The notes beneath the pieces were generated by a model, which saw only the letters and a list, made by a program, of their open reading frames with translations, ran no database searches and was not told the origin of the DNA. Position numbers and translations under genes: made by a program. From Asterochloris sp. CNOR1 (taxonomy: Eukaryota; Chlorophyta; Trebouxiophyceae; Trebouxiales; Trebouxiaceae), in contig OZ017752.1 of assembly GCA_963969365.1 (NCBI GenBank), positions 2,976,001 through 3,040,000 on the forward strand: a DNA stretch of 64,000 bases, read 5' to 3'. Of the stretch, positions 4,590 to 59,400 are shown piece by piece; position 1 is the stretch's first letter, and each line of letters starts with the position of its first letter.

Positions 4590-7500
4590 CCTTCCGGGAG
4601 ATCTGCCTCAGCTGTGGCCTTACAGAGGACCAGGTTGTCCTGCAGCCAGAACAGTGCACAGAACTGGAGCTGTTCCTCTACACATTCCCCAGGGTCAGAA
4701 GCAACTTATCTGGGGCTATCTCTGCGACGTGGTGATCTTCTGCCAATCATGTGCAGCTGCTGCTGCAGATGCTGTGCTTGGACCTCTTCCCAAGTCTCAC
4801 CAGCCTCACAATAGCACAGCAGGTACGCTGTCTAATTTGCCACGGGTGGCCCTTGTCTTGCCCAAGCAGCAACTTGCTGCCCAGCCTCACAGTATGCCCT
4901 CTACCTGCAGAACGTGGTGCACATAGAGGGGCTGCAGCACTGCCCACAGCTGCAGCAGCTCTGGCTGTTTGAGAACAAGATCTCCAGCATGTGGGGCCTG
5001 CAAGGGTGCAGCCAGCTGGAGCGCCTGTTCCTGTACAGTAACAGCATCTCACAGATTGAGGGGCTAGAGACTCTGACCAAGCTGCAGGTCAGCGTCCACA
5101 AGCACGTCACAGCAGCACTGCTGATGCCTGGCTTTGGAGCCCATGAGGGCTCCTGAGGCAGTGCTTGCTGCACAAGCGCAGTCCAATTGTGTCGGCCCAT
5201 TAGCTGGTGGTCCCAAGGCCCTGAAATGTGGCTGTGGCTGTGGCAACGCACTGCAGCATGAGGTGCATAGCTGCAGGACTATACAGGGGCTGCATGTGGC
5301 CAATACTAGCACATCAGCACTGGCGGCTGCCGTGCTGCAGGTGTTGTGGCTGGCTGACAACCAGATACGGCAGGTGGGCGGGCTGGCCACCCTGCTTGCC
5401 TTGCGAGAGCTGAACCTGGCAGCCAACCCCATTGCCACAGTGGGCAATGCATTTGTGGCCAACACCTCCCTGCAGCAGCTCAACTTGGCAGACACCCACA
5501 TCAGCAGCTTCAAGCAGGTGGGAGTCAACCTTCAGGGACCTGGTGCTGCCGGTGTAATGCTGGAGTGAACCTTGTATGCTGCTCACTTACCTGTGCTGTA
5601 ATTCAGCTAGACTCCTGCAAGCTTCTGGTGAGACTCCCAGCAGCATGCTTGTGCTCACCCTTTGGCACTGTATACAATGTCAAATATCTGTCGAAGCCTG
5701 TGCAGCATGCAAGGACAGCTGCCTACAAGCAAGCAACCGGGAGGACAAGCATGATGATGCAAAGCGGCCCGCTTGCAGGTGTGGCACCTGGCGGCCCTGA
5801 CATCGCTGCAGGACCTGTGCTTTAGTCATCCTGACTACGCGCCGAGCCCCATCGCACGGCTGTGCAACTATGCCACATATGCAGCTGTCAACCTGCCCCA
5901 TCTGACAAGCCTGGATGGGCTCACCCTGACAGCCTCCTCGGCAGCTGTGGCTGAAGCCACATACCTCAAGAAAAAGGTGCAACTCTTGCTGCGTGTATGG
6001 AATTTTGCCCCTGAAAGGTTTGCCGGGCTCCTGGCATGGTCGCCTTGATGCTGGTTGATGCGCTGGCAGTTCCTGGGGGTGCAGCCAGCCCACAGACGCC
6101 TCATGTGTACCAACATGGGCTTCTTGGTGCTGATGGCTGCAGCGTTCATCTTGATCTCCTGGCTCAGGCCAGGACGGCAGCAGTTGGGACGCACGCGGGT
6201 TGTGGGGCGGCAGTGCTGTCTGTGCTGTGCAGAAGAAATTTGCAAGAGGCCTGCTGGCCTGCTAGGCCCACAGGTATGACGAATGAGTCCCTGTCTTTGC
6301 CTGCAGATGTACTATAACATGCGCATCAAGACGCTGCAGCAAGAAGCGAGGGCCGTCATTCAACAGGCAGAGGCCACACTCAAGGCAAGAGCTATGCCAT
6401 CCCTCTGTCACTGTTTGTGACACTTGGAAAGTGGTGTCGCCTTCAAACTGTCCCATGCCAATACGTCATGTGCTCACCCTTGCTTGGTGCCAGGCACAGA
6501 TGTCTGACACGCCTGTAACATGATTGGGTTATGCTGATTACCTGCCTGCGTCGAACTGGGTCTGGCCTGCAGGCAGCTCTGCAGCCTATCAATGATGCAG
6601 AGGAGCAGCTCATCAGGAATCTGAAGGCTGTGGAGCGTGACCTGCACGCCAGTCCTGGCAGCAGCCAGGCGCAGGCACTGCAGCAGAAGGCTCGAGGGCT
6701 GCAGGAGGCTATCAATGCTCATGTGGAGCATGTGAGTGCTTGCGCCTCTAGGGAGGCTGCCCTGCATGCTGCCATGCAATGCTTGTCAAGACCGCTGAAC
6801 AAGCGCCAGCCGCCAGGTTGTTGCGCTCTCCTCAAGGATCCACATGTTCAGTGGGCGCTGATGCTGCCGGCCAGCTGTGTCAGCCCTGCATGGCACCCCT
6901 CATCATGTGGTGCTCCGCTCTGCAGGGCGTGCATCGGGCAGCAGCCCTGGCGGTGTCACCCAATGTCATCTAGGAGGCTTTCTCTCCAGTGCCCACAAAG
7001 CTTCGGCGCCAAGTCCACTGCCCTGCATGCAGTGCAGCAAGCAGCAGCTGTAGCCATTGGTGACCACAGCCAGCCAAGCTGTGGCAGCCCTTGCCGACAG
7101 GCCTCCTGTTGGAGTCTACTGCCTTGTGGCCCACTGCCATGTGGCGCGGCCCAACTGGGAAGCCGTGCTTGGCATGGACCCCTGAGTCCACACTGCCCTG
7201 CAGGCGGCTCAGCAAGCAGCCGCTCTAGCCATGGCCGCCACAGCCAGCCGGACTGTGGCAGCGCTTGCAGACAGCCCTCCTGGGCATAGCGCGGTGCCAT
7301 GCGGCGCAGCCTGACTGTGAAGCTGCGCTCTGCAAGGAGCCCCAGGTTTGCACTGCCCTGCAGGCGGCGCAGCAAGCAGCCGCTCTAGCCACGGCTGCCA
7401 CAGCCAGCCGGGCTGTGGCAGCCCTTGCAGAGCGGCGCCTGCAGGTGGAGCTGGAGACAGGAGGGAACATCCGCCTGGAGCAGGGCGGGCAGGGGGACCA

Positions 7501-10500
7501 GTGGAGCGAGAGCTGCAAGGAGCTGCTGATGGCGCGGTGCCCGGCGGAGCAGCTGGCGCGGGTAGGGCTGGCCGCCGTGGCTGTGCAGGGGACCATGCGG
7601 GTGCACAACCGCTGCCTGCGTAATAGGTGAGCCTATGGGGTGACATATGTACCTGCGCTGGGGTTTAGATGTTGGGATTTAGGGCTTTAGAGCCCTTGCT
7701 GGTGGGGACTATCTGCAGATCTTTAGAGACACTGAGGGGCTGCCCGGCCAGTGAGCAATCACTGTTTGCAGAGTAACAGGGAGGGCTCCCATGCTTGCGG
7801 GCAGTGCTGGCCGCCGCGGCTGTGCAGGGGACCATGGGGGTGCGCAACCTCTGCATGCGCAACAGGTGAGCCTGCAGAACAGGCTGTACATGCCTCGCCA
7901 GCGGGGACCACCTGCAGATCTGAGGCAACGTGAGGGGCTGCGTGATTAGTGAATCATAACTGCTGCGCAACTGTCAGTGGAAAGGTTTCGTGCATTGCTG
8001 ATGACCCGTTTGTCTCTGGTCCTTGTCAAAGCAGTTGCACAGGACGGCAGTGAGCGCCTGGCTACATTCAGCCAGCCAGGTCCACAACAGCTGTCATCAT
8101 TCCCTTTGGTGCTTTTCCTTGATGTACGGTCTATACATCCTGCAGCTGTGCAAAGCGAGGGCAAGCTGCGGCCAACAACGTGAAGAAAGTTTACGTCCAC
8201 TGCCTCAGGGGTCTATGACCTGCAAGTGCAGCCTTAACTGTCTAGAAGCCGCCATTACATTCCCACATGCCATCAACAGCCGTGCAGCATGCCACCTGCA
8301 GGATGGACCTGCTGCTGCGAGAGGCTGTTTGCCAGACTGATCCTCCAGAGTCGTTTGACTACTTTATAGTCATGGGCTCCTCAGTGGAGCAGCTGCAGCG
8401 TACAGTGGAGGAGGGATTTCCACCTGTGCAGGTGTGAGCTGATCTGTATAATACCACCCTGCGAAGAAGCATGGCGAAATGGGCAGACCTGCCTGCTTTG
8501 AGTCAGCAGCTGAGCAGCCGCTGGGCATTGCACCAGGCCCAGACTTCTTTGGCATTACATGTGAGGCAATTTGATGTGTATCATGGTGGCTGCTCGAGGC
8601 CACTGGCGGTAGCATCACTGCCAGGTCTGACTCCTTCTGCACAGCTCCCAGTGCTGCCCATGACCCGGCAGTCAGGTCCACGCTATGCACTGCAGGCAGC
8701 GGCGCCTCTGTTGGCAAGCACCCCACTGCTGTTGGTTGCGCCGCTGGCCAGGCAGGCTGCCCTGTCGCGGCAGTGCACCAGTGGCGTATGCCATATGCTG
8801 GTGGTCAAGGCGCTGCTGGGTGCAACCATCAAGGTGAATGACTGCCCCATGGCGCTCCTGATGAGAGCTTTTTTGGAGATGCTCTGCGCTCTGAGACTAC
8901 ACGGAGTCATCATGGCTGGGCAGGACACGAGGCCCTCTGCCACTGCAAGGTCATATCACTTGCTGTGGCACAGCGCATGCTGCATCTAAGCTCAGGACGG
9001 GGGTCAAACCTGCTGAGGAAGTCGTGAGCTGCAAAACGTGCAGGGGCAGGACGAGTGGCGACATGCAGACAAGAGACGTTCAACATGAGGGCAGCAAGCC
9101 TGGCCTTCCACAGCATCGCCAGCAAGACCCTTGACCTGCACCCACTTGGCCAGGCGCTGCGAGATACTTGCGTGTGCAGTCTGGCAAAGGGGTTCGCTGG
9201 TGCAGGAGCAGCAGGGGACACTTGCAGCCGGATTCCATGTTGCAAAACTTCCGGTTGTGGGCTGCAGGTACCCTCCCTACCCCCACTGGGCACCCCAGCT
9301 GCCATTCACCCTGCAGCTTGAGTCAGTGCCCTCGTTGGTAAGCAAGCGTTCCTACTCACATCAGCCCTGCAGCTCCATGTGGCATCCTCTGCAGGTGCCC
9401 TCCCCTCTGGGTGTCCCCACTACCATCAGCCCTGCAGCGTACCCCGAGTACACTGCAGCCTACCAGTGCGCCGCTGAGGACCCCAGGCAGCGCATATGGC
9501 ATGTCTTCGACACCAACCGCCTGGTGCCAGAGTACCTGGTGGAGCTACGGTGGACCCTGCAGTCAGGTGAGCTTCACGGCATGACATGTCATGTGTGCAA
9601 TGACACTGCAGCATGGACCTGCCGATTCTCAACCATGCAGGTGCTGCATGGAGCACAAGGACTCACGAAAAGCACGGTGACCATGCTGTTTGTGGAAGTG
9701 GTGACCTTCTTTCCCGTCAGCTGCAGTATGCATCACATTTCCTGCAGAAGACTCCAACACTGCTGTGGATGCCCCCTGGACCGGGGCTGCAGCTAAGCAG
9801 CCAGCCATAGCAGCACCCCTGCGGGGTTTCCTTGACCCCTCAGCGCTGACCAAGTCCCTGTACTGGCAGCACCATCAGCTAGATGCCGGCAGGGCAGCTG
9901 CCCTTGACATGCCGCCTCCTCTGGTGCAGCCAGTAAAGGTGTATCAGATGAAACAGCTGGTGCAGACAGCCACTGCCAGCCAGCTGACCCATCTCAACCT
10001 CCATGGCCATGGACTTCGCAAAATCGAGGTGGGTTCAAGCTAAGAGCGTGTCTGCTTGGGTATTGCACATACTCCACACAGTGCTGCAGCATGGCATGCA
10101 GGACATGAAAGCTGCCTACTGCAATCACTGTGACCTCTGCAGGCTTTCTGGGTTACTGGATGCTCCGCATACTGCTGCAGCATGGCATGCAGGACACAGG
10201 CTGTCTTCTGCTGTCACTGCGTGAGGTTTGCTCTGCAGATGTGGGTGCCGGTCCCTGCCTATATTCCCAGTCAAATCTTCAACAGCCTGGAACTCTCTAA
10301 CAGTGGGCTGCCCGGTGGTCAGATTGAGACCTGGCTGAAAAAGATGCACTTCTTGCTGCAGGGTGTGGACGCCCTCAAGCTGCTGCAAGTGCTGGTGCTG
10401 AGCTGCAACGAGCTGCAGCGCATGGAAGGCCTGTCAGGGCTGACCAACCTGCAGCACTTGGACCTCGCCTTCAATGCCATCAAGCGCATTGAGGGCATCA

Positions 10501-13500
10501 GAGTGAGCCCCTGCTGCCTACAGACTGCCATCTGTTGCACTTTGTAAGCAAGGAACTGTAGGATGCTTTGCATGGTCAGATGGGGTTTGCACAGACTTGC
10601 AACTGCTGCCTTTAGCAACTCTGCAGAGGGCCAGACTGAAGCATCTCAACTGCTTGCAAAGCTGTTGTGCAAAGCACATCATGTGAGTGCTGAGGAGCCA
10701 ACATTCTCATATTGAACTGGCTGCATGGTCTGTGACAAATCATGTGAAAAGGATATGCTGTCCTGCGCAAACGAGCTAGACGCCTGCATCTTTTCTGGCC
10801 GTCTCAGACAGCATTTTCTGGCTGGGCCAACTGCCACTGCCAGATTCCAAGCATGAGCACCTCCAGAGCTGGTTGACTTCAGGCGCAACCCGCATGATCA
10901 GCCACTGTGGTCGCCACGTGGCTGCAGCGCATGTCCCGTGCCTTGTGGAGCCTGCCCTCCAGGCCCCAGTTTGAGCTGCAGCCTCCTTGGTGGGTCCTGA
11001 TGCTGCTCTGTGCTGCCTTGCAGTGCTAGGGCCGCAGGCACAGCGGGGCTCCAAATTTTTCTGATGGGTCCTGTTTGTGCTGTGCAGGGCAGTCCTGCCT
11101 TATGCAGCTGGACCTGTGGAACAAACTCTCTGGCCAGGTCGAGGTGTCCCTGACATGGCTGCCGTGTGCTGTGCAGGGCATGTCGAGCCTCATGGAGCTC
11201 CTTGTGCTGACCCACAAACTGGCTCCAACATTTCTGACGGTTCTTGTGTGTCCTGTGCAGGGCAGTGCTGCCTCGTGCCCGAGCTGCCCCATTCAGGAAA
11301 CAACGGCACTCTCACATATGTCATGCATGTCCTGTGCAGGGGATGTCCTGCCTGACGGAGCTGGACCTGCAGGGCAACGCCCTGACCAGGCTGGAGGACA
11401 TCAACCTGCTGCGCAAGCACACCCCCCGCCTGACGCTGCTCAACCTGCGCGGTACCCCCCTGGCCAGCCAGCGGGGGCAGCGCCTGCTGGCCCTGCGCAG
11501 GCTGCCACAGGTAGGAGCACAGCTGTCCATGCCTGCACATGAGATGCTGGCCCGCTGGCCCTGCGCAGGCTACCACCGTTAGGTTTGGGCAGTTCATGCC
11601 GGCTTACGCAATCTTGGCCTGCTGCCGGAGACAGAGGTGCTGATGTTGCTGCTACTGCGTGATCATGGGGGGCGCTTGGGTCACACTTTCCATGCAACAT
11701 GGGTGGTGTGCTTTGGTTGCACCTTTGCTTGCTTAAGAGCGCGCCAGACTGGTGTTTGTGGCGCAGATGCTTCTGTTTGTGCCCCAATGGGCCGGCCACG
11801 GACTGAAGCACAATTGGGGTCAGCCCCTAGGGCAGGTTTCAGATGCTGCTCAGCCACAAAACACCTCAAGCCACTCATTGCTGGCAAGTCGACCTCTAAT
11901 GATGTCAGGGTGCTGCTGCAGTGCAGGACTGAAGTCTCGCTGCTGAAGTGGCCTCCTTTGTGATGCAGTGTAGAGCCACACACTGCTGAAGTTGGCTGCA
12001 CTGAGATGCAGCATGGAACAACACTGTTGCTTAAGTGGGCTCTCAAAGCACACCACCTTTTTTTCAAAGAGCTGCTCTTTGATGCAGCTGCGCCACCTGA
12101 ACGGGCTGCCAGTGTCCACCCAGGATGCAGCCATGGCAGCAGAGGGGTATGGCGTGCTGACGGCCCAGTTCATCCGCACCCATGCTCGCCCCTCCAGGCG
12201 AAGCATCTGGGAGGGTGAAGGTAGGTCAAACAAACATGCACAGAGGCAGTGCATCAAGCAGTATATGAGATGTTCCAGGTACGCCAGACTCCCATGGACA
12301 AGAACAGAGGCAGTGCGTCATGTTGCATCTGGGAGAGTGAAGGGTTCAGCTGACCCTGCAGCCAGACAATCCTGATGGACCCGTAGTCCTGCGCCATGAG
12401 AACTCACATCGGCCAGATGCAGTTGCACTCCAGGGACAGAGTGGATGCCTTGCTGTAGCCCCAGCCTTCCAGCAACCAACTGGCCTGCATGCCATTTTCT
12501 TGGGGCTGCCAGGGGACTACAGCAGCAGGAAGCTGCCCGTTCCTGCCCCAGCTGCATGTCAGGCCCAGCAGACTGCCTCAACAGCACCTTCTGCAGTCCG
12601 CAAGAGGCGCTTCATTGGTGCTGTCTATGACTGCTACCTCAGGTTATCTACCTGTCTGACCAGGGATTTTGCATCCTGCTGAATATGCTTGCAGCTGGCC
12701 TGACCAGCCCTTCCCTGGCTGCCAGGGGACTGCCCCAGCCAGGAGCTGCGGGACTGGGGCCCCGACTGGTGGGCTCACGTAGTGGACCTGCAGTGTCTGG
12801 CTCTGGGCATCCGGCGCCTGCAGAATTTGGAGCGGCTGACTCGCCTGGAGGTGGCTTCCTTTGCTGGAAACCACATCAGCCGTATTCAGCACCTGGATGG
12901 GTGCATAGCCCTGCAGGACCTGCAGCTACAGGTGGGCGTGCAACAATGATCTGGGCCCGTCTCACAGCAAGCCTTCCGTCTGAAACAGGCAGCTGCCAAG
13001 GCATGCTACCCCTAAGAGCAGCCACACACCCCACCGCTGCCTGCAGTCCTGGGTCCCTGAAACAGCAGCTGTGCATTGCAGATCTGCCAAGCCAGGTGCC
13101 TTATCAGAGAATTTTCATACAGGAGCTTTTCCTTTGAACAGATGCTGTGTCGGCAAGCATGACGGAGCTACTTTCTGTCCTTTCCCGCCCACATGGCTGC
13201 CATTGTCTGCGGTGCAGGATAACAGCCTCTCTTCCGTCACTGGGCTGTCAAAGCTGACAGGGCTGCGCAAGCTGGACCTGGCACGCAACTGCCTCACCAG
13301 CCTGGGCCAGCTGAGCGCCCTGCACTCGCTTGCCCACCTCAGCATTGAGGGCAACCGGCTCACCACCCTTGCGGGTACGCTATGCACTTCAAGGCAGTAA
13401 AGGAGCCTCTCTTCACCTCTGACCATGCTGTGGGTGATGGCTGCAAAGGCAGCTGAGCAGCTGCAGTCAACCTGCCGGGAGCTCAAGGCAGCACTGTCAT

Positions 13501-16500
13501 CCTATGGTGTGCATGTCAGTGGTGCTTGCCTGGTTAAGCGCTTACTCATGCCCCTGGCAGGAGTGCACTCCTGCATGCTGCCAGGTCTGAAGCAGCTGAT
13601 GCAAGTGGGTGATGCACATAATAGTAAGCTGGATACACCACGACTGCAGGCCTGGAACGCTTGGAGCAGCTGATGGAGCTGTATGCCGGGCACAACCAGG
13701 TGGAGGAGGTGCGGGAGGTGGGGAATCTGCGGGGGCTGCCCAAGCTCATCATCCTGGACATCGCTGGAAACCCAGCCGCGCAGGATGCGGACTGCCGCTT
13801 GTTCACGGTGTACCATCTGCGGCGCCTCAAGGCAAGGCTGGCTTTGCATATCTGCTGCAAGACATGCTGGTGAGCGGCATTCCTGATGCTTAGCAGATGG
13901 GCTGAGAAGCTGTTCTAAGGATGAATTGTCCTGTTATCTGACCGCTGCGCACGTTTTTGGTGACCTGGTTGTAGGTCAATGGTAGGGCTCCGGAAGCCAC
14001 CCTTTGGTGGTGGTTCCCAAAACATCTGCCAGTGAACGTTTCCCAGCAGGCAGCCAGCTGCACCAAGCATGCAGCTTGCCTGATGCCAGATCCCCCAGCC
14101 TGTGTCTTTGCAGGTGCTCATCAGCCAGCCTGCGGAGGCTGCAGAGCTGGCCACCAGCATGTCAACCAAGTCCCAGTCAGCCCATCCCACCTGCCCCCTT
14201 GCAGGTGCTCAACAGCCAGCCTGTGGAGGCCGCTGAGCAGGCTGCCAGCCGTTCCAAGTATGCTGGACACCTCATGCTGGACTTCCTGACCGAGCGCACA
14301 GGGTGCACCACCTTTGAGTCTCTGCAGGAGCTGGACCTGAGTGGCCTGGGCATCCGCGATGTGGGCAATGTGTTTGGGCGGGAAGACCTCGCAGGGTTAC
14401 GCCAGCTCAGCCTGGACAACAATGAGCTGTCTGAGGTGCAGACCAGAGCGTGAAAGCCTGTGCAGGGCTTGTTGACGGGGCGGCAATAGTTTGCTCAAGC
14501 ACGGACACTGACGAGGGTCTCTCAGAAGGCGCAGGCGCAGTGCCTCCTCCTCTGGGATGTGTCATTTGCCTGGACAGGACCTGTGTCAGCTTGGGCTGGA
14601 TAACAAGGAGCTGTCGCATGTGGAGAGGGCGGGGCACTTGCTTGAGAGAGGTTGCACACAGCATACTGAGCGTGGTGGCCGCGGACCTCCCTGACTGCAG
14701 ATTGGCCCAAGGCCGGCATGGCGCATGCATGATGTTGTCGCCTCATCTGACAAGGCACTGGCTGTGCTAGCCTGGCGTCTCTGAGCGCACACGGCAACAC
14801 CCAACCTGCAGCACAAGTTCAGTGCAGCTCGGTGGCCTGCAGGTTGCCGGCCTGACCTGTCTATCCAACCTGGCAGTCCTCAGCCTGAACAGCAATCGTC
14901 TGCTGCCAGAGTTCTGTTTCAGCAGCCCCGCGCTGCTGGAGCCGCAGGTGGAGGAGGGGGCAGCCGCTGCCTCGCTGTTTGGGCCCCTGCCCTCACCCTG
15001 CAGCGCTCCTGCGCCACCCTTCCCCCAGCTGCAGGCAAGTCTGTTGGCCACCTTGCTGTGGTGGGTGGTTGGTGTGAGAGCATGACAAGCCTCCTGGCCT
15101 CAAATGCACACAGGGCTCTTGCTTGGCGACACTGCTTAGGTTGCTTGGTCTGAGCCTTTTGGTCCCTAGCTCAGTTGTTTAGAGAACCCGCTCGTTGCAC
15201 AGGAGATCGCAGATTCACAACCCAGTGTTGTTGCAGAAGTAACGCCGGTGCCCAAAGCTTCAAGGCAGTCACAGTGCTGCTGCTGACCAGCCAGCCTTGC
15301 CCCCCCAATGCCACCAAGCTGTGGCTTGCGATGCTGGCCCTGCTACCAGGCAGAGGTTGCCCATAAGCTTTGCCGCTGCGTCTGGCTGCAGGTGCTGCGT
15401 CTGGGGAGCAATGGCCTTAGGAGCGTGGCAGGGCTGCAGCTGGCCTGTCTGTCAAGTGAGCCAGGCACCAGCCGCTCACAGAGCAAGAGCAAGAGGGCTG
15501 CCTCACAGCAACAGTGTTTGCCTGCAAGCTGAGCCTGCAGTACATGCTTGTAGCTAGTCGTCACACAAGGGTGAACCAATTGCGAAAGAAAACCTGTCAA
15601 AAGGTTCCCAGTAAACCTGTTGTCTGCGCGCAGGCAGGCGGCATGCTGTTAGCGGGCCTGTGCAGCCTGCACCTGCCAGGCGACAGGGCTTCCACACAAA
15701 CACACTCTTATATCGCACTGGACATGTGTGGCTGCACGGGAGTTGGATGTCAGATGTCAGCATGCTGCTTGCAGCCTGTGCCTGCCAGCCAAGAAAGCCG
15801 TCAGTTTGACATGATCTTGCGCCGCCTGCAGGCTTGCGCAGCCTGCACCTGCCGGGCAACAAGCTGAGCCGCTTGGAGGGCCTGGAGGAGCTGACCACCC
15901 TCAGGGAGCTGGTGCTGGACGGCAACCCCATCAAACACCTTGATCCTGCCTCCTTCTCAGGTGGGGGCAGCATGAGACTTGTCTGTAATGTTGACCGCTG
16001 CCCAAGTCATGCCATGGCAGACAAACAACCAAAGCTGCATGTACTGGTGCTGGATGATGTCCTCACCAAGCTTTACTTTTGCCACGTTTTCAGCTGGGGA
16101 CAGGACTGAACAAAGATTGTGTCTTGTGACGTGCGCTGTGGCAGCCAGGGTGTCGCTGTGGCAGCAATAGTGCTGCCAGAGGAGGAGGCCGATGTCCATG
16201 TCTCATGTCTCATGCAGGTGCAGGGGGTTGAGCTCTGGCTCTAGGGTGGCCGTCTAGGCTGAGCCCACCTTCAACGATCAGAGCTGTCATCTGACCGTGC
16301 AGGGCACAGCAATCCTTCAGCATCGCCACTAGCGCTGCGCTTGGCCCTCACTGCCTGCCTTTGCACAGCTGCAAGCTGCGTGTGGCTCCACCTGCCTGGC
16401 AGGCTACTGGCTGCGCCTAGTGCTGCCCACACAAATGCAGGATGCGGCCTGCCCACTGTGCTGCACCTGCCACTGATTAGTGCTGGTGCTACTGCAGGCT

Positions 16501-18093: not shown

Positions 18094-18270
18094 AGCTGGG
18101 GGCATTGCCCATGTCTCCTTCAACACAGCCCCCAGCTGCACCCCCTTGCCTGTCCCTCATTTCACGTCTCGTAGCCCTGTTGCAGCATGGTCTGTTCAAG
18201 GGTGAGTTGCAACTTTTTGTGAGTGGGCTGTGATCATCATGGTTAGAGCTTTAACTGAAGCAAGTTGAGT

Positions 18271-18996: not shown

Positions 18997-19100
18997 GATG
19001 TGGTTGTCTGAGTGGTTGCTCTATTCCAAGTTGTTAGAAGCGGCAGGCAGGTCAACATCATTTGCTTTCTTTGAATAAGAAGACGCCACCAGACCTGCTC

Positions 19101-19919: not shown

Positions 19920-20266
19920 TGACCAAACAATTATTATTGGTTCAATTGATGCCATCTAATGACTGATTTGTTCAATGAACCCCAAGAGATGGCAGTTGCT
20001 TACCAGATCTTGCCAGGGCTGCATCAAGACCTGCCCATTCTCTGCCAATGCCCGGATGGTCCCTTGATGCTGTCTGTAACAAACAAACATGCACAGCCAT
20101 ACAGGGGAACTGTGGTACTGCAGGGCAGGAGGTTTCCTGATGGCGATAGCTTTTTAGGGACAAGACTGTTCCTCCAATGCAGCACCATCTTTGGGCCAGG
20201 TGTACATCCACCTCATGAATTTGCAAAACGCAATAAAAGGGGGGCACAATCAGGGGAGTTCTGTCA
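19920..20266. other. Convergent 3' region, no gene seen
   Basis: About 350 bp between the stop codons of the KCTD gene (plus) and the SET-domain gene (minus). Apart from a possible TGTAA polyadenylation signal for the KCTD transcript at about 20075, I see nothing coding or repeated. Confidence 0.5.
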
Positions 20267-44873: not shown

Positions 44874-45284
44874 TTTCAATTCTTTACACATTGCACAGCC
44901 AAACCAAGGCCTCCACCGTAAAGTATTGCTTGTGATAACCTTTGTGATTGTGCAACATGAAGTACACTCAGTCTACTGACAGTTGTGCCACCATGTGCAA
45001 AGCCTGGTCCCAGATCATGCCAGCAGCATGGCCATGCTGCATGGCCTCAGGGCGCCCTACTCCCCACATGTGCACTTGTCTTCAGCAGCACCTACAGGTG
45101 GCATATGGAAGGCATGCATCGATCATCCTTCATAGAGGCTCTTTATAGAGACCGAGGAGCATCCTTCAAAATGAAGCAAGCTGATTTCAGACCCGCATAT
45201 GTGATATGGTAATCTCAAGGGAAGGGCAGGCCAGCAGCGTTGCAACACTCAAATGAAGCCAAGGCTGATGGCAATCTATATATT
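44874..45284. other. Convergent 3' region, phosphatase and ankyrin-like B
   Basis: About 410 bp after the phosphatase stop. There is one AT-richer stretch (GTAAAGTATTGC near 44918) and no coding signature. Confidence 0.45.
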
Positions 45285-46447
45285 CATGTCTTTCAAGCTC
45301 GCAGACCATGTCTGTAATTAAAAACAGCCAATTCACCTGTCAGCCCGCGACGCATCAGATGTTGCTGAATGAAGATGGCTCCCTGAGCAAAGTTCCAGTC
45401 AACAGCAGTCCAAGGACAAGGAGGATCTCGTGTGCGCAGCCTTTAGAACACACCAAGATACACGCTGGCTGCACAGATAGTCTCATGACATGACGAATGG
45501 AGGATGCTGACACTGTACCCTGAGGTCACCCACTTCAGCTGCAACCCGCATGTACTAAGCGCCATACTGTTGCTTCCAGTGAAAGCCATTCTCGTGAAGC
45601 CACTCATGATGTGAAGATGACGAGAGTCCGCAGCTGCACAGAAGGGATCAATTGCCTTATATGGCGGCGGGTCCCAAGGGCATGGCGGATCTTGCTCCCT
45701 GAGCCACTGTATGATGTGCAAGTGGCCACTGCTTGCAGCCTGCATGTACGCCTTAATGGACCATTTGCATTGCGGGTCTTGCTCCCTCAGCCACTGTATG
45801 ATGTGCAAGTGACCATTGCCCGCACCGTCTTCCAAGGTAAAAGACCAAGTGCCACTCGAAAGCATGCTCATCATCTGCAAACAGAGACTTCTCAGGCGAG
45901 GCACAACACCAGTGTGTTTCAAGACCAACGCAGTGCCTCGCACCTTGAAAGAGGGCTGTTGTTGAAGCCATTGCAGGATGTGCAATTGTCCTGCGGTTCC
46001 AGCACAATAGAGTATGTATTCGTCATCCAAACACTCAGACTTCTGCTCCCTGATCCATTTGAAAACGTGCAGGTGTCCTAAAGCTGCAGCTTCGCTGCCT
46101 ACTTGCATAGCATAATCCTCACCTGCAGAGTCATGCGAAAGCAGAGTCATGCCTCAGAAGTGAGCATGCCATCAAGACATCAAGCACCTGTCTCCTCGTC
46201 TGCAAGCAAGGAGCTGTACAGCTCCTCCATCCTTTCCAGCTGACCCTCCATGGCGGCCTTCTCCATCTGTCTGAACACTGCAGGTACAGTTGAATCGATG
46301 TGCGTGACAGGGTGGTGCTTCAAATTCATGCCTGACAACTACTTGGCAACTGCTGCGGTGCTTACCTTGTTCATTGATCTCACTGGTGGCTTCGTCACTC
46401 ATGGCTTTACTGCACAGCAACAGAGCTGCTGTGAAGTTTGCCAACAT
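45285..46447 (-). pseudogene. Ankyrin-like repeat paralogue B (decayed)
   Basis: Inverted paralogue of gene A. Exon 1 (46447-46366, MLANFTAALLLCSKAMSDEA), exon 2 (46277-46188, VFRQMEKAAMEGQLERMEEL) and the first part of exon 3 (46122 onward) are intact, with good TGCAG acceptors and units such as GHLHVFKWIREQ, GQLHILQWLQQQ and GHLHIIQWLREQ. After HLHIM the frame slips by one base relative to gene A, and the encoded sequence turns into SGFTRMAFTGSNSM. Homology to gene A continues in another frame to about 45285. It might encode a truncated protein ending near 45443. Confidence 0.7.
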
Positions 46448-47196
46448 GTATAGCAGCCAAAAATCAAGCTGTGATCCTTGCAATCTCTCGCAGGTGGGCA
46501 GAGTGTGCTGGGTACGTGTAGCAGCACCGTGCAATAGGAGATGTCTCAGAGGTACAGGGCCTCTTTCGGCTGGGCTCTGGCCATGCTGCAGGTCAATGCC
46601 TCAGGAGTGCTGGCACCCTTAGATCTGATGACTGCATGAGTTCTCCGAGGAGCAGGTCCTCACAAAGCCTCTTTTGCTGGGCTCTGGCCATGCTGCAGGT
46701 CAATGCCTCAGGAGTGCTGGCATCTCTAGAATCTAGCAGATGCATGGACGCAGGCTAAGTAGCAGGTGTTCGGGTCAGGCAAATAATGAAAACAAAGCTT
46801 AGAAAGGAAAGCTGTGACAGCAGCCTTTATTCCCTGAGGCCAAATGCTTGGTGGGTCCGACCTCTTCTGTAGCAGCGCAACCTATCAGGCACATGGGCCT
46901 GGTATGAGCCTTAAACATCATTTGGAGCACCACCCGGTAGCAGAGTGTGCAGTCTAGGGACCCTGTGATATAGCAGAATCTGTGCGTGCATGCAAGCAAA
47001 TGCTCGTTGGTGAGCTGTGTTGCACTGTGAGACAAAAGGTTAGGTACGCTTGACAATTAATTGTCAGGATGCTCAATATTGAGCATCCTGTCAAGCTGTT
47101 GTTTAAGAACTGCACGTTTGACACCGAAAGGGAATGGCAGGCCAGCAGCTTTGCAGCGCTGAGATGCAGCCAAGGCTCATCACAACTGTATAGTAG
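46448..47196. promoter_or_regulatory. Region between the two decayed ankyrin-like paralogues, with shared upstream element
   Basis: About 750 bp. Two copies of the family upstream element lie at about 46552-46625 and 46660-46735 (minus orientation, that is, upstream of B). The rest, up to the 3' end of paralogue C, shows no gene. An inverted repeat sits at about 47057-47093: CAGGATGCTCAATATTGAGCATCCTG is a near-perfect palindrome, possibly a terminator-like hairpin or recombination relic. Confidence 0.55.
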
Positions 47197-48340
47197 CTAT
47201 TCAAGTGCTTCAATTTCACAGACCTTGTCAGTGATCATGACAGCCAATTCTCCTGGCAGCCCGCGAAGAGTCAGAAAGCCCTGAATGAAGATGGCTCTCT
47301 GGGCATAGATCCGGTCAGCATTGGTTCAAGGACAAGGAGGATCTTGTGTGCGTAGCAACTTCAACACAGTGAGATACAAGCTTACTTCACAGCTGGTTTC
47401 ATCCATGACAAATGGAGGATGCTGACTCTGGGCCCATTCAAGTGCCTTGAGGTCACCCTGCGCAGCTGCAGCCCGCATGTACTCAGTGCCATACTGTTGC
47501 TTCCAAGGAAAGCCATTCTCATAGAGCCACCTCATGATGTGAAGCTGACCAGACTCCGCAGCTGCAGAGAAAATTTTGTTCACCTCGTATGGTGGCGGGT
47601 CCCAGGGGCATGGCGGATATTGCTCCCTGAGCCACTGTATGATGTGCAGGTGACCACGGCCTGCAGCCCACTCGTAAGCCAGATTAGAACAATTGCATGG
47701 CGGGTCCTGCACCCTGAGCCACTGTATGATGTGCAAGTGACCGTTGCCAGCAGCTTGGTTGAAGGCGTTGATCCCATCATCACAAACAAAAGTAACTGCC
47801 ATCTGCAGATAGAGACCTCTTGAATGAGACTCAAATACCAATGTGTTATCAAGTTCGACGAAACGCTTCACACCTCAAGAGAGGGCTGTTGTTGAAGCCA
47901 CTGCAGCATGTGCAGGTGTCCTACGCTTGCAGCAGAAATGTTAGCCGCTGTTGTCCACAAAGAACTTCCACAAAGAAATCTGATTCTGCTCCCAGAGCCA
48001 CTGTACAATTTGCAGGTGTCCTCCTCCTGCAGCCGCCGCGGCCACTGGGACATAGTCCTCCCAATCCTCATCTGCAGGGTCGCGCGTCAGCAAAGTCATG
48101 CCTCAGATGTGAGCATGCCAACAGTCAATCAAGCACCTGTCTCCTCGGCTGCCAGCAAGGAGTTGTACAGGTCCTTCACCCTTTCCAGCTGACCACTCAC
48201 AGCAGCCATCTTCATCTCGTTGAGCACTGCAGGTACACTTTTATTCTTGTGCGTGACAGGGCACTGCTTCATATCATGCCTGACAACTGCTGCTGTGCCT
48301 ACCTTGTTTGTTGTGAGCACATATTTATTTTGTCATCCAT
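47197..48340 (-). pseudogene. Ankyrin-like repeat paralogue C (decayed)
   Basis: Second inverted paralogue. Exon 2 (about 48230-48142, VLNEMKMAAVSGQLERVKDL) has a good CTGCAG acceptor. The putative first exon (ATG at 48340, MDDKINMCSQQT) joins it in the wrong phase. Exon 3 shows a frame slip near the second repeat unit, a TGA after QQQPSLEV (or the start of a short GTGTGA...CTGCAG intron), and a TGA where gene A has Trp after PPCP. Units retained: GHLHMLQWLQQQ, GHLHIIQWLRVQ, GQLHIMRWLYENGFPWKQ. Homology to the gene A C-terminus continues to the stop at 47197. Probably a pseudogene. Confidence 0.7.
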
Positions 48341-48701
48341 GGTTGCTGCACACTCAGCGAGAGATCACTGCAACAGAGTGGGTGTGGAATCAGCCAAATG
48401 TTTGAATGCCAACTAAAATGCATGCTGCGTTGACACTGCAGACCCCCAAGTCACCTGATCCTTGCACTCTCATGTCCGTGGATCAAGTCCACCGGGTACG
48501 TGCAGCATCATTGTGCTATAGGTAGCCTCAGAGGGGCAGGCTCTCACAATGGCCTGTTACGCTGGACCCTGGGCTAAGCTGCAGGTCAATGCCTCAGGAG
48601 TTGCGGCACTTACATCCAGTTGATACATTACATTTTGGTATTTGAAGTGTATCAAGTCAGACAAGCAAAGTCTGACCAGCTTTCTGTCTTTCCCTTTCAC
48701 C
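48341..48701. promoter_or_regulatory. Divergent region, ankyrin-like C and TFIIH p52
   Basis: 361 bp between divergent starts. It holds one copy of the ankyrin-family upstream element (about 48528-48610, minus orientation) and GAGAGTGCAAGGATCA in reverse at about 48450-48475. The Tfb2 promoter must lie at the right end; no TATA box is obvious. Confidence 0.5.
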
Positions 48702-51700
48702 ATGGACCTGGCCCGCTACATCGAGGGCCTCAGCGGGACCATGATGGATGAGCTGTACCAGAGCCAATACGTCTGCCAAGCTATCCTGCGTTGCCTGCCT
48801 CCCTTAGCCAAACAGTACCTGTTCAGGCTACTGCATTGCCCTGGAGTCCCTGCAGGTCAGTCAAGCTTGCTTTTTGGCACTCCCTTCAATGCTGGTAATC
48901 AGTAATGGACTGCGACTGGCTCTCCTCGCAGAGTATCTGCAATCATGGTGCACAGCAGAGGGCAGCAGTAAACACAAGACGGCCATGAGTCGTTTGGAGC
49001 AGCTGCGGCTCCTGAAACCCATCACTATCCAGCAAAGCAGGTGTGTTTCATGCAGTATTGCAGCTTGAATAATCAGCTTGAGCCTCCGCATGGCCACAGC
49101 TGTGAAAGCAGGCTCAAGCAAAAGCCCTTCTTGTGCAGGCAAGGAATGGCAGCCTATGCAATGCACGAGGGCTTCCAGCACCAGCTTCAGCTTGCTCAGT
49201 CCGGCGCTTCAAGTTTCATTGTTCAGGTGACACAGGGACTGCGTGCAAGGGACATGTCTGGCCTGTGGCATCCAGTGAGGTCCACTATATAAGCAGATCG
49301 ATTCTGGGAATGCTTTGGTGGCTTGTCGAGGAATTTGCATTACACATGTCATTTTCCTGCAGGTGCCCCCTGATCATGTGCTAGCTGCGGCTCCAGGCCC
49401 AGAGGATCTGGACAGGCATGCCACCTCCAGCTGGGAGGTGAGCAAAGCATGCAGATCCAGCCCACAGGCTAGCTCAAGAGTGCTGCTGAGCATATTGCGT
49501 GGCAAAGTGGATGTGCTGTGACTGGAATCTTGAGCCCTGGGTTCTCGCCTTGGTCTGCACCCCCCAGCCCAGCCTTTGCATGCTTCAGTAGGCGTCTTGA
49601 GTCCATCATGTGCTCCGTTGCAGGCCTTGCTACTGTACGTAGTGACCCCCACTGGAGTGCCACCTTCTGAGGCTGCCGCCAGGGAGCTCGACCAGAGGCC
49701 GCTTGCAGTTGACAAGCTGCTGCAGGGGGCGGGCCTCTCATCAGATGGCAAGCAGAGGCTGCGATAGCCAGCTGGCAAAGCATCTAGCCACGCTGCACCT
49801 GGCTGCTGCAACTAGCCAGGCACTTGAAGATTTCTCGAGGGTGGCCTTGGTTTGCACCGGTGTCATGTGCATAGCTGTGGCACCTGGCTGTGTTGCTGCA
49901 CACGCAGGGCCACTGCAGAGAAACTCTTTCCCTTTGAGCTGCTAGAGTCTTAAAGTCTGTTCCTGTTTGTTTTTGCTGCAGAGAGGACGGTGACCCAAAC
50001 AGGATTCCAGTTCCTGCTGCTGGACACATACAACCAGCTGTGGATTCTGCTGCGGGAGTACATTGACAGCGCAGCCCGACGCTCGGGTGGGCCTTTGGGT
50101 GTGCTCATGTCCCCAACCAACACATATCGTGTCTGCAGCATGTGGTAGTGAGCTGACAGCTTTGCTCAGTGCTCTGGGCAGCCTCTTGTTCTGATGCAGA
50201 TTTTGCCGCCAGTGAGGAGCGGTGTTGCCATGTGGTTGAGAGCTTGCAACATGAGCACCACCGCCAGCACAATCTGTGCTGCAGCTGCTAGGGCTGGCAG
50301 GCCCTGACTCCCCAACACAGGTTCTGCAGGCGAAATGCCAAGCCTACCTGCAATGCAGCCATGCTGCCAGACCTCTGGACAGGTAGCAATGCTCACAGTG
50401 ATGTGTTAGGTGCGAGGTGCCGGCCAGCACAACTTTGCAAGCGCGGCTAGCATGATAATTGTCATCTGGCTGCAGCTGTGGTCTTCCAAGAGTGCCTGCC
50501 CACTCTGCTGGGAGCTTTTCGAGTTGTCGTCAGGGTACTGCTGCATTGATTGCGGGGTCTGGAGCCTTGGCAAAGATGCTGCAGCTTCCCACGCCGCACT
50601 CACGACGTGGCATGTTACTCTACCTGCAGGCAGCGAGCTGTCTGCCCTGATGACCTTCATGCTCCAGCTGGGCTTCCGTCGCCCTGGGCAGCCCTTCCCG
50701 CTGCAGGACCTCTCCAGCTTCGAGGCAGGCATCGCAGCCCACCTCGCGCAGCTGGGCCTGTTACTGCCTTTCAGGTGGGCTGCAACGCTGGTCAGTCGCC
50801 AACCATACCAGCAGGAAGCTTGTTTTCACAAGCCCCATCAAGGAAGGGCATGCTGCTGGCCTCCAGCAACGGCGTCAGCCTGCGTGTGCACGACTGATCA
50901 GTCCCCACACTCTCACTCAGCCCTTGCAGGCAACGTGTCTGCCTCCCTAGTGCTGTTCCCTGACTCCACCAACTTTCTGAGGTGTCATGCTTTGCACTGT
51001 GCTTGCAGGGTTGATAACCAGGTGTGGCTGTGCCCTACACGCCTAGCGCTGGCACTGTCAGGCGGGCAGTCTGCTGAGGTCCAGAGGGAGGTGGCTGCAG
51101 GCTTTGTGGTGGTGGAGACCAATTTCAGGGTGGGTGCAAGCTTCTTTGCAGCACCCCCCCGACCTCTGCTTGCGGGCCCATGCACTGCAACACTGGGATT
51201 CTGGCTTGCACCTGCTGTTTGCCCTGCCAACCAAGAAAGCTCTTGTGGTCCAGGGCACCCAAGCCACTCCCCCCAGCACTGTCTTTTCCAGCCAGAATCG
51301 ACGAGCTAAACTGCTCCCGAGAGACTCTGCGAAGTGTCAGCGCTCATCAGGCAGACTGCCTGTGCAGCGGCTCTGGGCTGCCTGCAGGCACGTGGTCATG
51401 TCACTCCATCTACTTAGCCACGGCCAATCAGACTGGTCAGCTGCCTCACATCCCAAGTCTGGTGCTGCAGCACCAGGCACCACCATCAAAGCACTGCACC
51501 GACCTGCTACCCGCCCTGCAGGTGTATGCCTACACCACCTCCGATCTGCAGACGGCCGTGCTCAAGATGTTCACACGTGCAGAGTGCCGTCTGCCCAACC
51601 TGTATGTGGGCCTGCTGACGCGCGAGTCAGTCACCGGGGCCCTCAACTCGGGCATTACAGCAGACCAGGTGGTGCAATACCTGCGGCAGCACGCGCACCC

Positions 51701-52661
51701 TCAAGTGCAAGGGCGCTCGCCCATGGTTCCAGAGGTGGGGCCCGCCTGCAGTGCTATCGATTGTGGGTGGCTGTGTAGTGCTCGCGGCAGCACACACCTG
51801 CACACAGCTGCTGGGGTGCTTTCACAACACTCTGGTGCTGGGCAGGGACCGGGGTCAATAGGGTTTCTTGCAAGGAGCAGGCAGCAAGGGGTAGTACCTC
51901 CAGCAGCATGCACACCCCGAGGTGCAGGGGCGGCCGGTTACAGTACCACAGGTGGCACCACTGTAAGGGATGATTAAAGGGCTATTTTGCACCTCGGTGA
52001 ATGGGCGCTTGCCTAGGACGACAGAGGTGGGCAGGGCACCTTGAAAAGGAGAATTTTCTGCTCATACACGTGCAATGTGGGGCAGTGCCCCTGGCACCTG
52101 TAACTGCAGGGGTGCTTGTCTCTGGTTCAGGGGTGGGCGCTGGGTTGGATGCTGTAGTAGGGGTGCTCTACATCATTTTGCATCCTCAGGTGCAGTCACG
52201 CTCCGCCCCCTGGGTCCTATAGGTGAGCAGGCTCTTGTGCTCATGGCTACTCTGCCAACTGCATGGGCACAGTACCAGGCGCAGGGGCACAAGCCTCCAG
52301 CTGCCTGACAGTGACAGCTGTCCCTGCCACTGCACGTCTGTGAAGGAGCAGTTGGCCTGTGGAAGGCCCGGCCAAGGTGGTCCACAAGCCACAAGCTCTC
52401 AGCCACTTCCATCATGTTGTGTGCTGCATGCTGCAGAACGTGACAGAGCAGGTCAGCCTGTGGGAGGCTGAGAGCGACCGCGTGCAGCACCAGCGAGCCT
52501 ACCTGTACGGCAACTTCGCAAGCCCGGAAATGTTTGCTCTCACCCTGAAGTTTGCCACTAACTCAGGCTACATGCTGTGGTCAAACCCTGAGAAGCAGAT
52601 GGTGGCGTGCAAGCACGAGGCCCACCCCAGCATGAGGGAGTACATCAAGAGCATCAAGTGA
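48702..52661 (+). CDS. TFB2: TFIIH core subunit p52 (Tfb2/GTF2H4)
   Basis: Subunit of the TFIIH core that anchors and stimulates the XPB ATPase in transcription initiation and nucleotide excision repair; nuclear. Exons 48702-48855, 48932-49040, 49139-49226, 49363-49437, 49624-49747, 49982-50086, 50630-50774, 51009-51129, 51522-51734 and 52437-52661 join to 452 residues, the usual family length. Landmarks: N-terminal YIEGLSGTMMDELYQS; TGFQFLLLDTYNQLW; CPTRLALAL; GFVVVETNFRVYAYT; RLPNLYVGLLTRESV; GITADQVVQYLRQHAHP; C-terminal YMLWSNPEKQMV. The intron after 49747 appears to start GC (ATG then GCAAGC), since the frame otherwise runs into a stop. Intron 9 carries repeated copies of the preceding exon end. 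Confidence 0.95.
51690..52222 (+). repeat. Tandem copies of a Tfb2 exon end with splice donor
   Basis: The end of exon 51522-51734 (HPQVQGRSPMVPE, then GTGGGG) recurs in intron 9 at about 51917-51955 (HPEVQGRPVTVPQ then GTGGCA), about 51990-52030 (weaker, ends GTGGGC) and about 52180-52222 (HPQVQSRSAPWVL then GTGAGC). Each copy ends at a donor-like GTG. Confidence 0.75.
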
Positions 52662-56221: not shown

Positions 56222-56442
56222 GTCGTGAGTTTGGAGGAGGTTGGGCTGCTGTTGAATGGCTTGAGTGTCAATAGACAGCTGGGCCAGGTCTGGGACTTGT
56301 CCAAGGAGGTCATGTCAAGTTCAGAATCCCGCAGCTGTGGCACATATGGCTTTGTTTCTCATGCTTCTGTCACCTGTACCCGTCACAGCAGCAATTGCTC
56401 GATACAAATGCGGATCAGGTGACAGAGCATTTCTCTCCTGCC
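56222..56442. promoter_or_regulatory. Short divergent promoter, AP2 and TLDc genes
   Basis: 221 bp between divergent start codons (56221 minus, 56443 plus), so the two genes probably share control elements. No TATA box or named motif was seen. Confidence 0.5.
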
Positions 56443-59400
56443 ATGGGACCCATCAGCAATGCTCATGATGGACCCCCAGGGCCCAGCATGGCCCAGCTGC
56501 AGGACAGGCTTGAGCAGGTGGAGGACAGCCTGGCCACAGCGCTGGCCAGAATCGAGGCCCAGCGCAACAGGGACAAGCTGTTGACCAGAGAGAACCAGCT
56601 CCTGCGCAGGATGCTCAAGGAGGCTGGTGTACGCAATGTGCCAGGAACGCACCAGGGCAGCAGTCCTGGGCCCAGCCCCTCTGCTGCAGGCAAGTTGGTT
56701 GCTGCACGCATCTGTATTGGGGCATGTCTTGGCAGAATGTCATCCAGGTGATTCCTGCCATCGGTGCATGGGCAGAGCCCTGACCGCTGCATGTCTCCTA
56801 TGAGGAACAGGGGACAGCCACTGCACCTGGGCAATGTGCAGCGGCTGATTTGGATCAGACCTTTGCCCTGCCATGCTGCCAGCTTACCCTCATACTCAGA
56901 ACACTGTGGCTGCAGGGCGGCAAGGGCAAGACACTGCCAGCACAGTGCTGGCAGCCATGGCTGGAGAAGGGGAGGAGTCCAACCTGCTGGGCGGCGCTGT
57001 GGATGGGCACCCAATCTATGTGTGGACCCCAGAAGGCAAGGTCAGCATGCAAGGGGATGCTTTGAGGCCGCTGCTGGCCCTGCCAGCACTGGCAGCAGGA
57101 GACAGGTAGTGGGCAGTGAGTGGCCAGCAGGCGGCAGACAGCCTGAACCAGACGATGCATACGGTTGACTTCAGACCTATGCCGGCCAGCCCAGGGCCAA
57201 CAGGGATCTAGCAACAATCATTAGTCGCAGCACAATGCTGCCAAATGGGTCTGTAGGGACGTGCAGCAGACCTCTCACATGGAGCAGTGCTCATGGTCTC
57301 CCCCTCAGCCACTGCACTGCGGCCAAGGTCGGCCTGGCTGGCGCCCCTGCCCTTGCACCCAACGCTCTGGGTGTCCCTCTCAGCCACAGCACTGTGGCTG
57401 CGGTCTGCCTGCCCTGCACTCCTCAATCTGCACCCAGGAGACAGCCACAATGCCAAGCTGCAGCAACTGCCCTTGCCTTTTGCGGCTGACGCATGCACTT
57501 CTCCCTGGTGCCCTGCAGCTGCCGGGCTCCATCCTGGTCACACCCACCTCCCTCGAGTTTGTGGACCTGCGTGCCAAGGTGCTGCCCACAGAGTTCCTGG
57601 GCATCCGCACTGTCAAGCGGGATCAACTGGAGCAGCAGCAGCAGGTGAGCTGCCCATAAAGGCAGGTTGAGGCCCTGGGGAGGGGCCAGGCAGGGTGGTC
57701 TGCATGGCTGTGGCAGACGCCATGCCCGCCTGTACAAAATGCAAAGCCCAGCAACAGGGTACACCTGTGTCTTCAGCTCATGGCTGGCAGCAATGGCTAA
57801 CGCGCTCGTTGAGGCTGCTGTAGGGTGAGGGGAGGTCAACCCCTTTGGATGATGCAGCAGTCCACTACTCTGCTTGGGTGTCTTGATATCGAAGCTGTGC
57901 AAGCACATCCGTGTGGGACTGCAGCGACTGGCACCGACCTGCCAGCACAGGCCAAGTCTGCGACCATGTCTGAATTAGTCCTGTCATGGCTCCTTCTGAT
58001 GCAGGATGGGGGGTGGAGCAATGCCCACAGGCCGCCCGCGAGAGCCAAGTCTGCCACGACAGTGGTGGCGCGGCTGCCCGCGGGGGTGCAGGTATATTGT
58101 CTTCTTATTTGGTGGCCTGACCTGCCTGCTCCTGTTGGGTGGGCGGAGGCAATGTTGCATCTGGGCAGCAGCCGAGTCTGTTGGGAGCGCTGGGCCAGTC
58201 AAGATGCTAGCTTGCCCCGGTGCCTCGCAGAGCCGCATTGCCTGCGGCCTGGTGTACATGGTGGGCGTTGGAGGCACTGACAGCGGGCTGTTCCTTGTGT
58301 GTTGCTGTGGGGTGTCGGGTTGCTTTCAGACCTATGTTGCTGGACGCAATGAGATGGGGCTACTGCAGACCCACACCTGGCAGCCCCACGACCTACAAGA
58401 GCAGGGTTGTGCATACCGCTGCATAACGGGCTGCTTGCAGAGCTTGGAGGGGCCAGAGCCAAGCGGCCCCAGCGCAGACGCAGCCGGGGACCAGGCCGAG
58501 GGCGCGCTTCCGAAGCTGCGAAGCAGGTGAGAGGGCACCGTGGAAGTCCGCACAGCAGCTGGGAGGGCCGAAATGAAGCAGGGGAGACGGCACCGTCAAA
58601 GTAGGCAGAGCAGCTGGGAAGCCTGAGGGGTAGTGCAGCATCACGCTCTGTCCTGTACTCATTGCTCAAGTCAAGCTTCAAGGCCTGAGGGGAGTTGCAG
58701 CATCAGGCTCTGTCCTGCACTCATCGCCCAACCCACAGCATCCATGCCCATGTTACACCTGGGCAGGCAGTAGCAGCTGCTTGCAGGCCGCTGCTTGCTC
58801 ACCACTTGATATGCAGCCCGAAGCTGTGGGTGCAGACTGAGAACCCGCCTGCATTACACCTGCGCAGGCGGCAACAGCTGCTTGCAGGCCGCGGCACGCC
58901 CTCCATGCAAGACACGGCCTTGATTGATCGGTGCAGGCTGGAGACCTACCTGCGCCACTCCTGGACGGGCAGCGACAGCGCCCAGATGTTCACACCGCAG
59001 GAGGGAGCCGCAGTCCAGGGGGCCCTGCCACCAGAGTCAGGGGCTTGGGAGATCCTGTGGAAGGCTGGGGGCGGCAACGGCCCCCTGCGGCGGCTGACAT
59101 TTGAGGCCAGCACAGCCACGCGGACGTTCATTCACAGGTGGGGAGGCCCCTTGACACAGACTGGCCCAGGTCTGACCCTGGTCCAATGCAGCGCAGGCCC
59201 GTTCATTGTGGAGTTGCCAATCACTTGATGCCATACCCTGCAGAAGTATTCCTGCATGTACTGGGGCCGCATGGTGCTCAACCGTTGTCAAACAGGCAGG
59301 TGCGCTGGTCTTCCTTCCAAGGGCTTTGAGGGTTTGCAGACATTCTGGCTCACCTGACCTGAATTTGTCTCATTGAGAGATGGGTCTGTGCCAGGCAGCT

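Follow-up and report, generated by a model that had tools for sequence, protein, structure and literature searches.

Exon-edge echoes in Asterochloris

Short copies of exon-intron junctions, referred to here as exon-edge echoes, lie within the introns of several genes in a 64,000-nucleotide window of Asterochloris sp. CNOR1 (contig OZ017752.1, positions 2,976,001-3,040,000 of the forward strand). These echoes are real and common, and they are not restricted to the window, the whole stretch of DNA in which they were noticed. Coordinates below are those of the window unless prefixed C1 or C10. The GC content of the window is 57.8%, and the whole genome comprises 56.4 Mb in 21 contigs; the genome of Asterochloris glomerata has 56 Mb, a GC content of 56-62% and ∼9 introns per gene (PMC6652019).

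Genes were modeled ab initio, with no existing annotation, by a self-trained gene hidden Markov model (HMM) on a sample of 314 kb from three regions: the window, C1:1.0-1.2 Mb and C10:1.00-1.05 Mb. The model yields 621 exons and 572 introns, with learned splice preferences close to CAG/GTGAG for donors and TGCAG/G for acceptors (the slash marks the junction). The model proteins of the window are plausible and include NAD-binding (FNR), SET, TLDc (PF07534) and Tfb2 proteins, a purple acid phosphatase and a DEAD_2 helicase; an AP2 match scores under the curated cut-off. The FNR-labeled protein carries the NAD-binding domain PF00175, the label itself coming from an earlier, sequence-only reading of the window. 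Two fusions are evident flaws of the models, FNR being joined to the SET gene and the purple acid phosphatase to Tfb2.

Thirteen homologous proteins were aligned to the window, six of the 79 found for LRRC9 and seven for Tfb2; the best-scoring homologues of both come from Trebouxia (41% and 48%, respectively). The exons that they confirm include 7433-7627 and 11340-11504 (LRRC9), 51519-51737 and 52440-52658, and they place one LRRC9 donor at 7627 rather than at 7600 as in the model. A further protein from public data, P0088, shows 96% identity over 22% of the Tfb2 query. It comes from an open reading frame, apparently unspliced, in a close relative and matches window 50452-51890 at 84-94%; its DNA could serve to date echoes.

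The echo loci of the window are listed by coordinates, strand and feature.

7558-7634, plus strand: LRRC9 donor parent, the exon end at 7627 plus its donor; 88% identical to 7797-7873; exon 7433-7627 is supported by homologues, the echo is not
7797-7873, plus strand: LRRC9 donor-side echo in the intron; unit of ∼240 bp, with a second block at 7683-7764 versus 7882-7962
7016-7436, plus strand: LRRC9 acceptor-side unit, 160-175 bp long and present three times in tandem (at 7016, 7191 and 7351); exon start from the gene model alone
11047-11278, plus strand: LRRC9 acceptor-side echoes 11076-11138, 11147-11199 and 11221-11278, upstream of the homologue-confirmed exon starting at 11340
11482-11624, plus strand: LRRC9 donor-side tandem pair 11482-11557 and 11550-11624; spacing 68 bp, donor 11510
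12504-12749, plus strand: acceptor-side pair, echo 12504-12536 and parent 12717-12749; LRRC9 exon start 12726
14028-14277, plus strand: acceptor-side echoes 14099-14158 and 14028-14086; LRRC9 exon start 14205, homologue-confirmed
14403-14626, plus strand: donor-side pair, parent 14403-14442 and echo 14587-14626; LRRC9 exon end 14435
15652-15861, plus strand: acceptor-side pair, echo 15652-15685 and parent 15828-15861; LRRC9 exon start 15832, homologue-confirmed
25520-25935, minus strand: SET-gene exon edge (donor 25868) with two donor-side echoes; spacing ∼170 bp, genome matches local only
26009-26236, minus strand: acceptor-side tandem pair 26009-26125 and 26120-26236; acceptor 26039
32166-32339, minus strand: FNR exon start (acceptor 32214) with acceptor-side echo 32280-32339; the weakest case
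51671-51738, plus strand: Tfb2 parent, exon end plus donor; exon 51519-51737 is homologue-confirmed
51888-51955, plus strand: Tfb2 donor-side echo
58753-58905, plus strand: TLDc acceptor-side echo 58753-58804 and parent 58854-58905; spacing 101 bp, used acceptor probable

The sequence-only reading had cited echoes in LRRC9, the SET gene, Tfb2, the TLDc gene and FNR. Those of the first four genes were located, and FNR, for which it gave no coordinates, is the weakest fit. Each cited pair was scored against 2000 random intron stretches drawn from a pool that included true copies. The random stretches average 9.7-10.8, and the observed scores of the six cases, in the order LRRC9 donor, LRRC9 acceptor, SET, Tfb2, TLDc and FNR, are reached by 0, 0, 6, 6, 2 and 5 of 2000. 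The LRRC9 donor pair (7568-7634 versus 7807-7873) scores 53, the LRRC9 acceptor pair (11328-11390 versus 11076-11138) 28, the SET pair (25887-25935 versus 25710-25758, with a second copy at 25541-25589) 33, and the TLDc pair 34. The Tfb2 pair, absent from the listing of repeats scoring at least 20, scores 28 in this targeted comparison; its echo is also matched by three of the seven aligned Tfb2 proteins, with residues of the true exon end, and a further two copies, weaker ones around 52.0 and 52.2 kb, come from reading by eye only. The FNR pair (32166-32226 versus 32280-32339) scores 21, with one of the 2000 controls higher (22). In LRRC9, 11147-11199 also matches 11310-11362, 11221-11278 matches 11047-11105, and homology-supported exons with an echo in the adjoining intron include donors 7627, 11510 and 14435 and starts 11340, 12726, 14205 and 15832.

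Frequency of echoes within and beyond the window

In the 314-kb sample, 144 local direct repeats within 2.5 kb score at least 20, compared with 37 local inverted repeats and 3.5 in remote control segments; the inverted hits likewise exceed the remote level. Eighteen of the 144 pairs (45.2-48.7 kb) were left out before junctions were counted because they are part of a duplicated ankyrin-type gene, leaving 126 pairs in 81 clusters. A predicted junction lies in one copy of 54 of these pairs, against 35.3 expected by circular shift (p 0.0005), and in 35 of 81 when one pair is taken per cluster, against 22.1 (p 0.0025). By the same circular shift, purely noncoding pairs are depleted (30 of 126 versus 48.7; per cluster, 20 of 81 versus 32.3), and pairs with a junction in each copy are no commoner than expected (7 versus 7.2; per cluster, 3 versus 4.9). 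The junction excess persists when the window is removed (42 of 91 versus 25.0 expected). The 83 pairs that touch an exon without being exon-exon pairs divide into 54 with a junction in one copy, seven with junctions in both and 22 with none. The partner copy lies in the same intron 31 times, compared with 12.4 expected under random placement, and elsewhere 13 times versus 22.4. Spacing in the 81 clusters has a median of 111 bp (5-95% range 62-405), and several alignments pass through the junction, their length being close to or greater than the spacing.

The excluded stretch (45200-48700, minus strand) holds two ankyrin-repeat gene copies ∼1.93 kb apart, with blocks 72-84% identical and no gene-model annotation. 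A further ankyrin-repeat reading frame lies at 35263-35883 on the plus strand (Pfam Ank_2/Ank_4).

Probes placed at junctions find a copy in 40 of 603 cases, compared with 20 of 1428 tiled intron probes, a ratio of 4.7; the sequence-only reading would have been refuted by junction-spanning copies no more frequent than those of random intron segments, and they are more frequent. Sorted by exon coding score, the junction probes succeed in 33 of 415 (at least 10), 22 of 169 (at least 20) and 3 of 43 (at least 30). Exon-interior probes have a copy in 4 of 189 and 1 of 188 cases, and unrelated-intron controls in at most 0.5%. Lowering the cut-off gives a hit for 11.0% of the 954 edge probes and for 0.6% of controls; as each intron has two ends, this suggests that about a fifth of introns of at least 120 bp carry an echo. 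At a score of at least 14, edge probes match the adjoining intron in 10-12% of cases, compared with 0.6-0.7% in unrelated introns and 5% for intron-only probes; at a score of at least 20, unrelated introns give 0.0%.

At C10:1023905-1024375, two consecutive predicted exons begin alike (75%) and two more intronic copies lie close by; these may be mis-annotated echoes, or an intron gained via junction-crossing duplication as in potato. At C10:1036416-1036577, an exon start has a pair of young copies in the intron (92% and 88%), 48 bp apart. Their flanking intron is hardly similar, and this locus is the least like a simple junction-crossing tandem unit.

Side rule and reading frame

The copies obey a clear side rule. 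At a score of at least 14, exon ends match their own downstream intron in 10.1% of 465 cases and exon starts their own upstream intron in 11.6% of 467. Introns on the wrong side remain near background (0.6% of 325 and 0.9% of 340; controls 0.3-0.4%), as does the next-but-one intron (0.7% of 436; control 0.5%). This rule argues against exon copies inserted anywhere, and it is accounted for by head-to-tail duplication, which puts the copy after the used donor or before the used acceptor.

Exon-exon pairs with a spacing of at most 400 bp are spaced by multiples of three in eight of nine cases (five of six loci), and all exon-exon pairs in 9 of 14, whereas exon-noncoding spacings show no frame preference (20/24/27 modulo 3). 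The in-frame cases include three 108-bp (36-codon) tandem repeats at 26867-27190, within a long reading frame that belongs to the same gene model as the SET domain.

Proposed mechanism and fate of the copies

The echoes probably go back to head-to-tail tandem duplications, ∼60-250 bp long and since decayed, which by chance fell across an exon-intron junction. For a unit that includes an exon end together with the intron start, the first donor would stay in use and the second copy would fall in the intron; for one that includes an intron end and the exon start, the last acceptor would stay in use and the first copy would become intronic. The protein would be unaltered either way, and a junction-crossing duplication would therefore be tolerated. 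A duplication within an exon would be eliminated unless it preserved the frame, a filter suggested here by few loci. The intronic copy would then decay near-neutrally while selection held the exon half of the original, and because the exon is conserved, exon-edge copies would stay recognizable for longer than intron-only copies. The duplications themselves may arise by slippage or microhomology repair. The copies are local and mostly in direct orientation, and they recur in all three regions.

The decay of the copies is close to neutral. In 67 pairs, mismatches at codon positions 1, 2 and 3 number 241 of 998, 176 of 997 and 291 of 990 (0.241, 0.177 and 0.294), a third-position excess of 1.4 that suits one neutral and one constrained copy. 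Were both copies under coding constraint, third positions should dominate the mismatches strongly. Donor sites are retained in the copies to the same degree as neighboring bases, and special keeping of the splice dinucleotides shows no sign for donors; the corresponding counts for acceptors carry a bias, since an alignment has to extend to the junction. Together with the frame-blind spacing, these patterns point to copies that are mostly neutral relics. GT or AG is kept in 30 of 44 junction-spanning copies, and in 23 of the 44 the splice site scores no lower than the 10th percentile of real ones, so splice sites could potentially be drawn from the copies.

Introns with an echo (46 of 572) have a median length of 473 bp versus 268 bp (p 9e-10), a difference that is partly trivial because longer introns give more room. 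The earlier proposal is partly supported: a genome-wide tandem-duplication process that feeds introns is borne out, with these longer introns and the 23 well-scoring sites on its side, and the alternative splice sites that it would supply are potential ones.

Junction excess and alternative explanations

The ratio of junction to intron copies is 2.3 at a score of at least 14 and 4.5 at a score of at least 24. An exon-intron pair decays mainly on one side and an intron-intron pair on both, so a junction excess is possible without targeting. When uniform duplication is combined with old-skewed ages fitted to the junction scores, the predicted ratio is 2.0-6.1 over five settings and five thresholds, depending on constraint and indels. 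Pairs of at least 90% identity number 4 of 33 at junctions and 2 of 20 in introns, compared with 37-52% under uniform ages, and their scarcity in both classes supports old-skewed ages. Targeting of junctions is thus not required: tandem duplication under purifying selection yields the side rule, and exon conservation can yield the excess provided that ages are old-skewed. A mild hot spot at junctions is possible.

Several results weigh against ordinary tandem duplication with neutral decay. Uniform-age models give ratios of 1.3-1.7, 1.24-1.25 and 0.8-1.5 (the last versus 2.75 observed), four of the five fitted settings over-predict at a score of at least 14, and an earlier age fit (identities, 35+35-base probes) predicts 1.5-2.6 versus the 4.7 observed. 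The observed ratio also climbs to 5.7 and 9.3 at exon coding scores of at least 10 and 20. The simulations of the neutral expectation disagree on the share of the junction excess that is explained. In acceptor-side intron flanks, similarity drops nearly to background more than 10 bp away from the junction, and certain young exon copies show hardly any of it in the intron (C10 36416-36453). In-frame stops number 5 in 946 codons, compared with 16 expected (95% range 9-25) if all changes fell on the copy, a deficit due in part to mismatches that arose on the exon. The gene models are ab initio, and several echoes are predicted as exons (e.g. 7828-7865).

The same figures bear on a junction-targeted process, perhaps tied to splicing, R-loops or TGCAG-type splice motifs, that would add exon-edge copies beyond ordinary tandem duplication. 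The probe ratio of 4.7, its rise to 5.7 for better-supported exons, the lower predictions of the earlier age fit and the uniform-age simulation favor it, as does a GCTGCAnGGC-like stretch common to the breakpoints of one young pair (C1 112562-112729, by eye). On the other hand, the ratio is only 2.3 at the lower threshold, the later age-fitted model spans the observed values, junction and intron pairs alike point to old ages, and intron-only and exon-internal duplications of similar spacing are also present; such targeting is considered rather unlikely. It is very unlikely that selection maintains the copies as functional alternative exons or splice sites. The retained dinucleotides, the well-scoring sites and the shortage of stops speak for function, against which stand the weak codon-position bias, the frame-blind spacing, donor retention like that of neighboring bases, and the absence of any match to an LRRC9 echo among the six aligned LRRC9 homologues.

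Chance similarity via TGCAG-rich composition, or a dispersed repeat family, has a negligible probability. TGCAG is strong at acceptors, and the sequence-only reading had named such composition as a possible cause; composition alone is ruled out by the near-zero controls in unrelated introns and remote segments. The LRRC9 query 7558-7634, searched over 56 Mb, matches only itself and its local copy, and four such genome look-ups in all found no match outside their own locus, at limited sensitivity: two of the four returned the query alone and missed even their own local echo, so distant divergent copies could escape too. Introner-type or transposed elements are rejected by the low rates in unrelated and next-but-one introns, set against 10-12% in the adjoining one, and whole-exon tandem duplication with both splice sites by the 54 of 83 pairs with a junction in one copy only. 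Intron birth, in which an AGGT-containing exon stretch is duplicated to give a new intron whose ends copy the exon edges, is a known model (PMC2891723, PMC4974935). It is highly improbable as the source of the echoes, which sit within introns, apart from the used site; the matching donor/acceptor signature occurs in 0 of 570 introns (ungapped ±30 bp, at least 33 of 60), a comparison sensitive to recent births only.

Comparison with known systems

Earlier papers describe the duplication of exons in tandem, the gain of introns by such duplication and, in potato, a duplication across a junction (PMC9013439, PMC2891723, PMC4974935). The description of the echoes as an unreported mode of intron growth was too strong, given the potato case (PMC4974935) and the intronic exon copies sought in animals (PMC9013439, PMC12343006). 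Tandem exon duplication was found in ∼10% of animal genes in a 2002 study cited in PMC9013439. The echoes resemble the copies of PMC9013439 in being local exon copies within their own gene, some of them intronic, and differ in often consisting of a partial exon with one splice junction, decayed and near-neutral. Expressed as a share of exonic bases, noncoding copies of at least 80% identity reach 1.16% in this alga; the corresponding values in PMC9013439 are 0.08% for fly, 0.06% for worm and ∼2% for human, with its long introns. The density is thus more than tenfold that of fly and worm and not above that of human; as the methods differ, the tenfold gap is a lead and not a measurement.

In potato, as here, a tandem duplication crosses an intron-exon boundary and inherited splice signals are re-used (PMC4974935). 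That single event made a new intron, whereas the many events in Asterochloris seem to lengthen existing introns, the AGGT-type signature being found in 0 of 570. Novel intron positions in Drosophila likewise involve small tandem duplications of exonic DNA that supply splice sites as raw material, although the duplication there is inside coding sequence and here across a pre-existing junction (PMC2891723). Small segmental duplications in Drosophila are similar in being mostly <500 bp, frequent and subject to a high elimination rate; they differ in coming from polymorphism data, with many interspersed rather than tandem and, in the portions covered, no junction analysis, whereas the echoes are old decayed copies of one genome (PMC6380325).

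The Exonize classes 'inter-boundary' and 'intronic' would catch intronic exon copies, degenerate ones included, and rely on query-coverage cut-offs (PMC12343006); the side rule and a junction-versus-intron test are absent from the portions of that paper covered. Nothing describing either was found in the literature as partially covered, which leaves their absence unproven. The apparent novelty lies in how dense the echoes are for a small genome, in how clearly the side rule holds and in reading exon edges as conserved tags of a mutation class that is otherwise erased.

Implications

A tentative possibility is that tandem duplication of 60-250 bp units is unusually frequent in this algal lineage, that the echoes detectable in about a fifth of its introns of at least 120 bp reflect introns grown largely from such units, that junctions are perhaps mild hot spots, and that a minority of echoes may be spliced in. 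Annotation calls for caution, as echoes resemble exons and the ab initio predictor took several for exons. Exon edges act as conserved tags, through which old small duplications stay visible after purely intronic ones fade; echoes hence allow a normally erased class of mutation to be counted and the resulting intron growth to be estimated. They also provide a means of finding out whether alternative splicing draws on duplicated splice sites, and if the tentative possibility above is true, they would form a standing stock of ready-made alternative splice sites.

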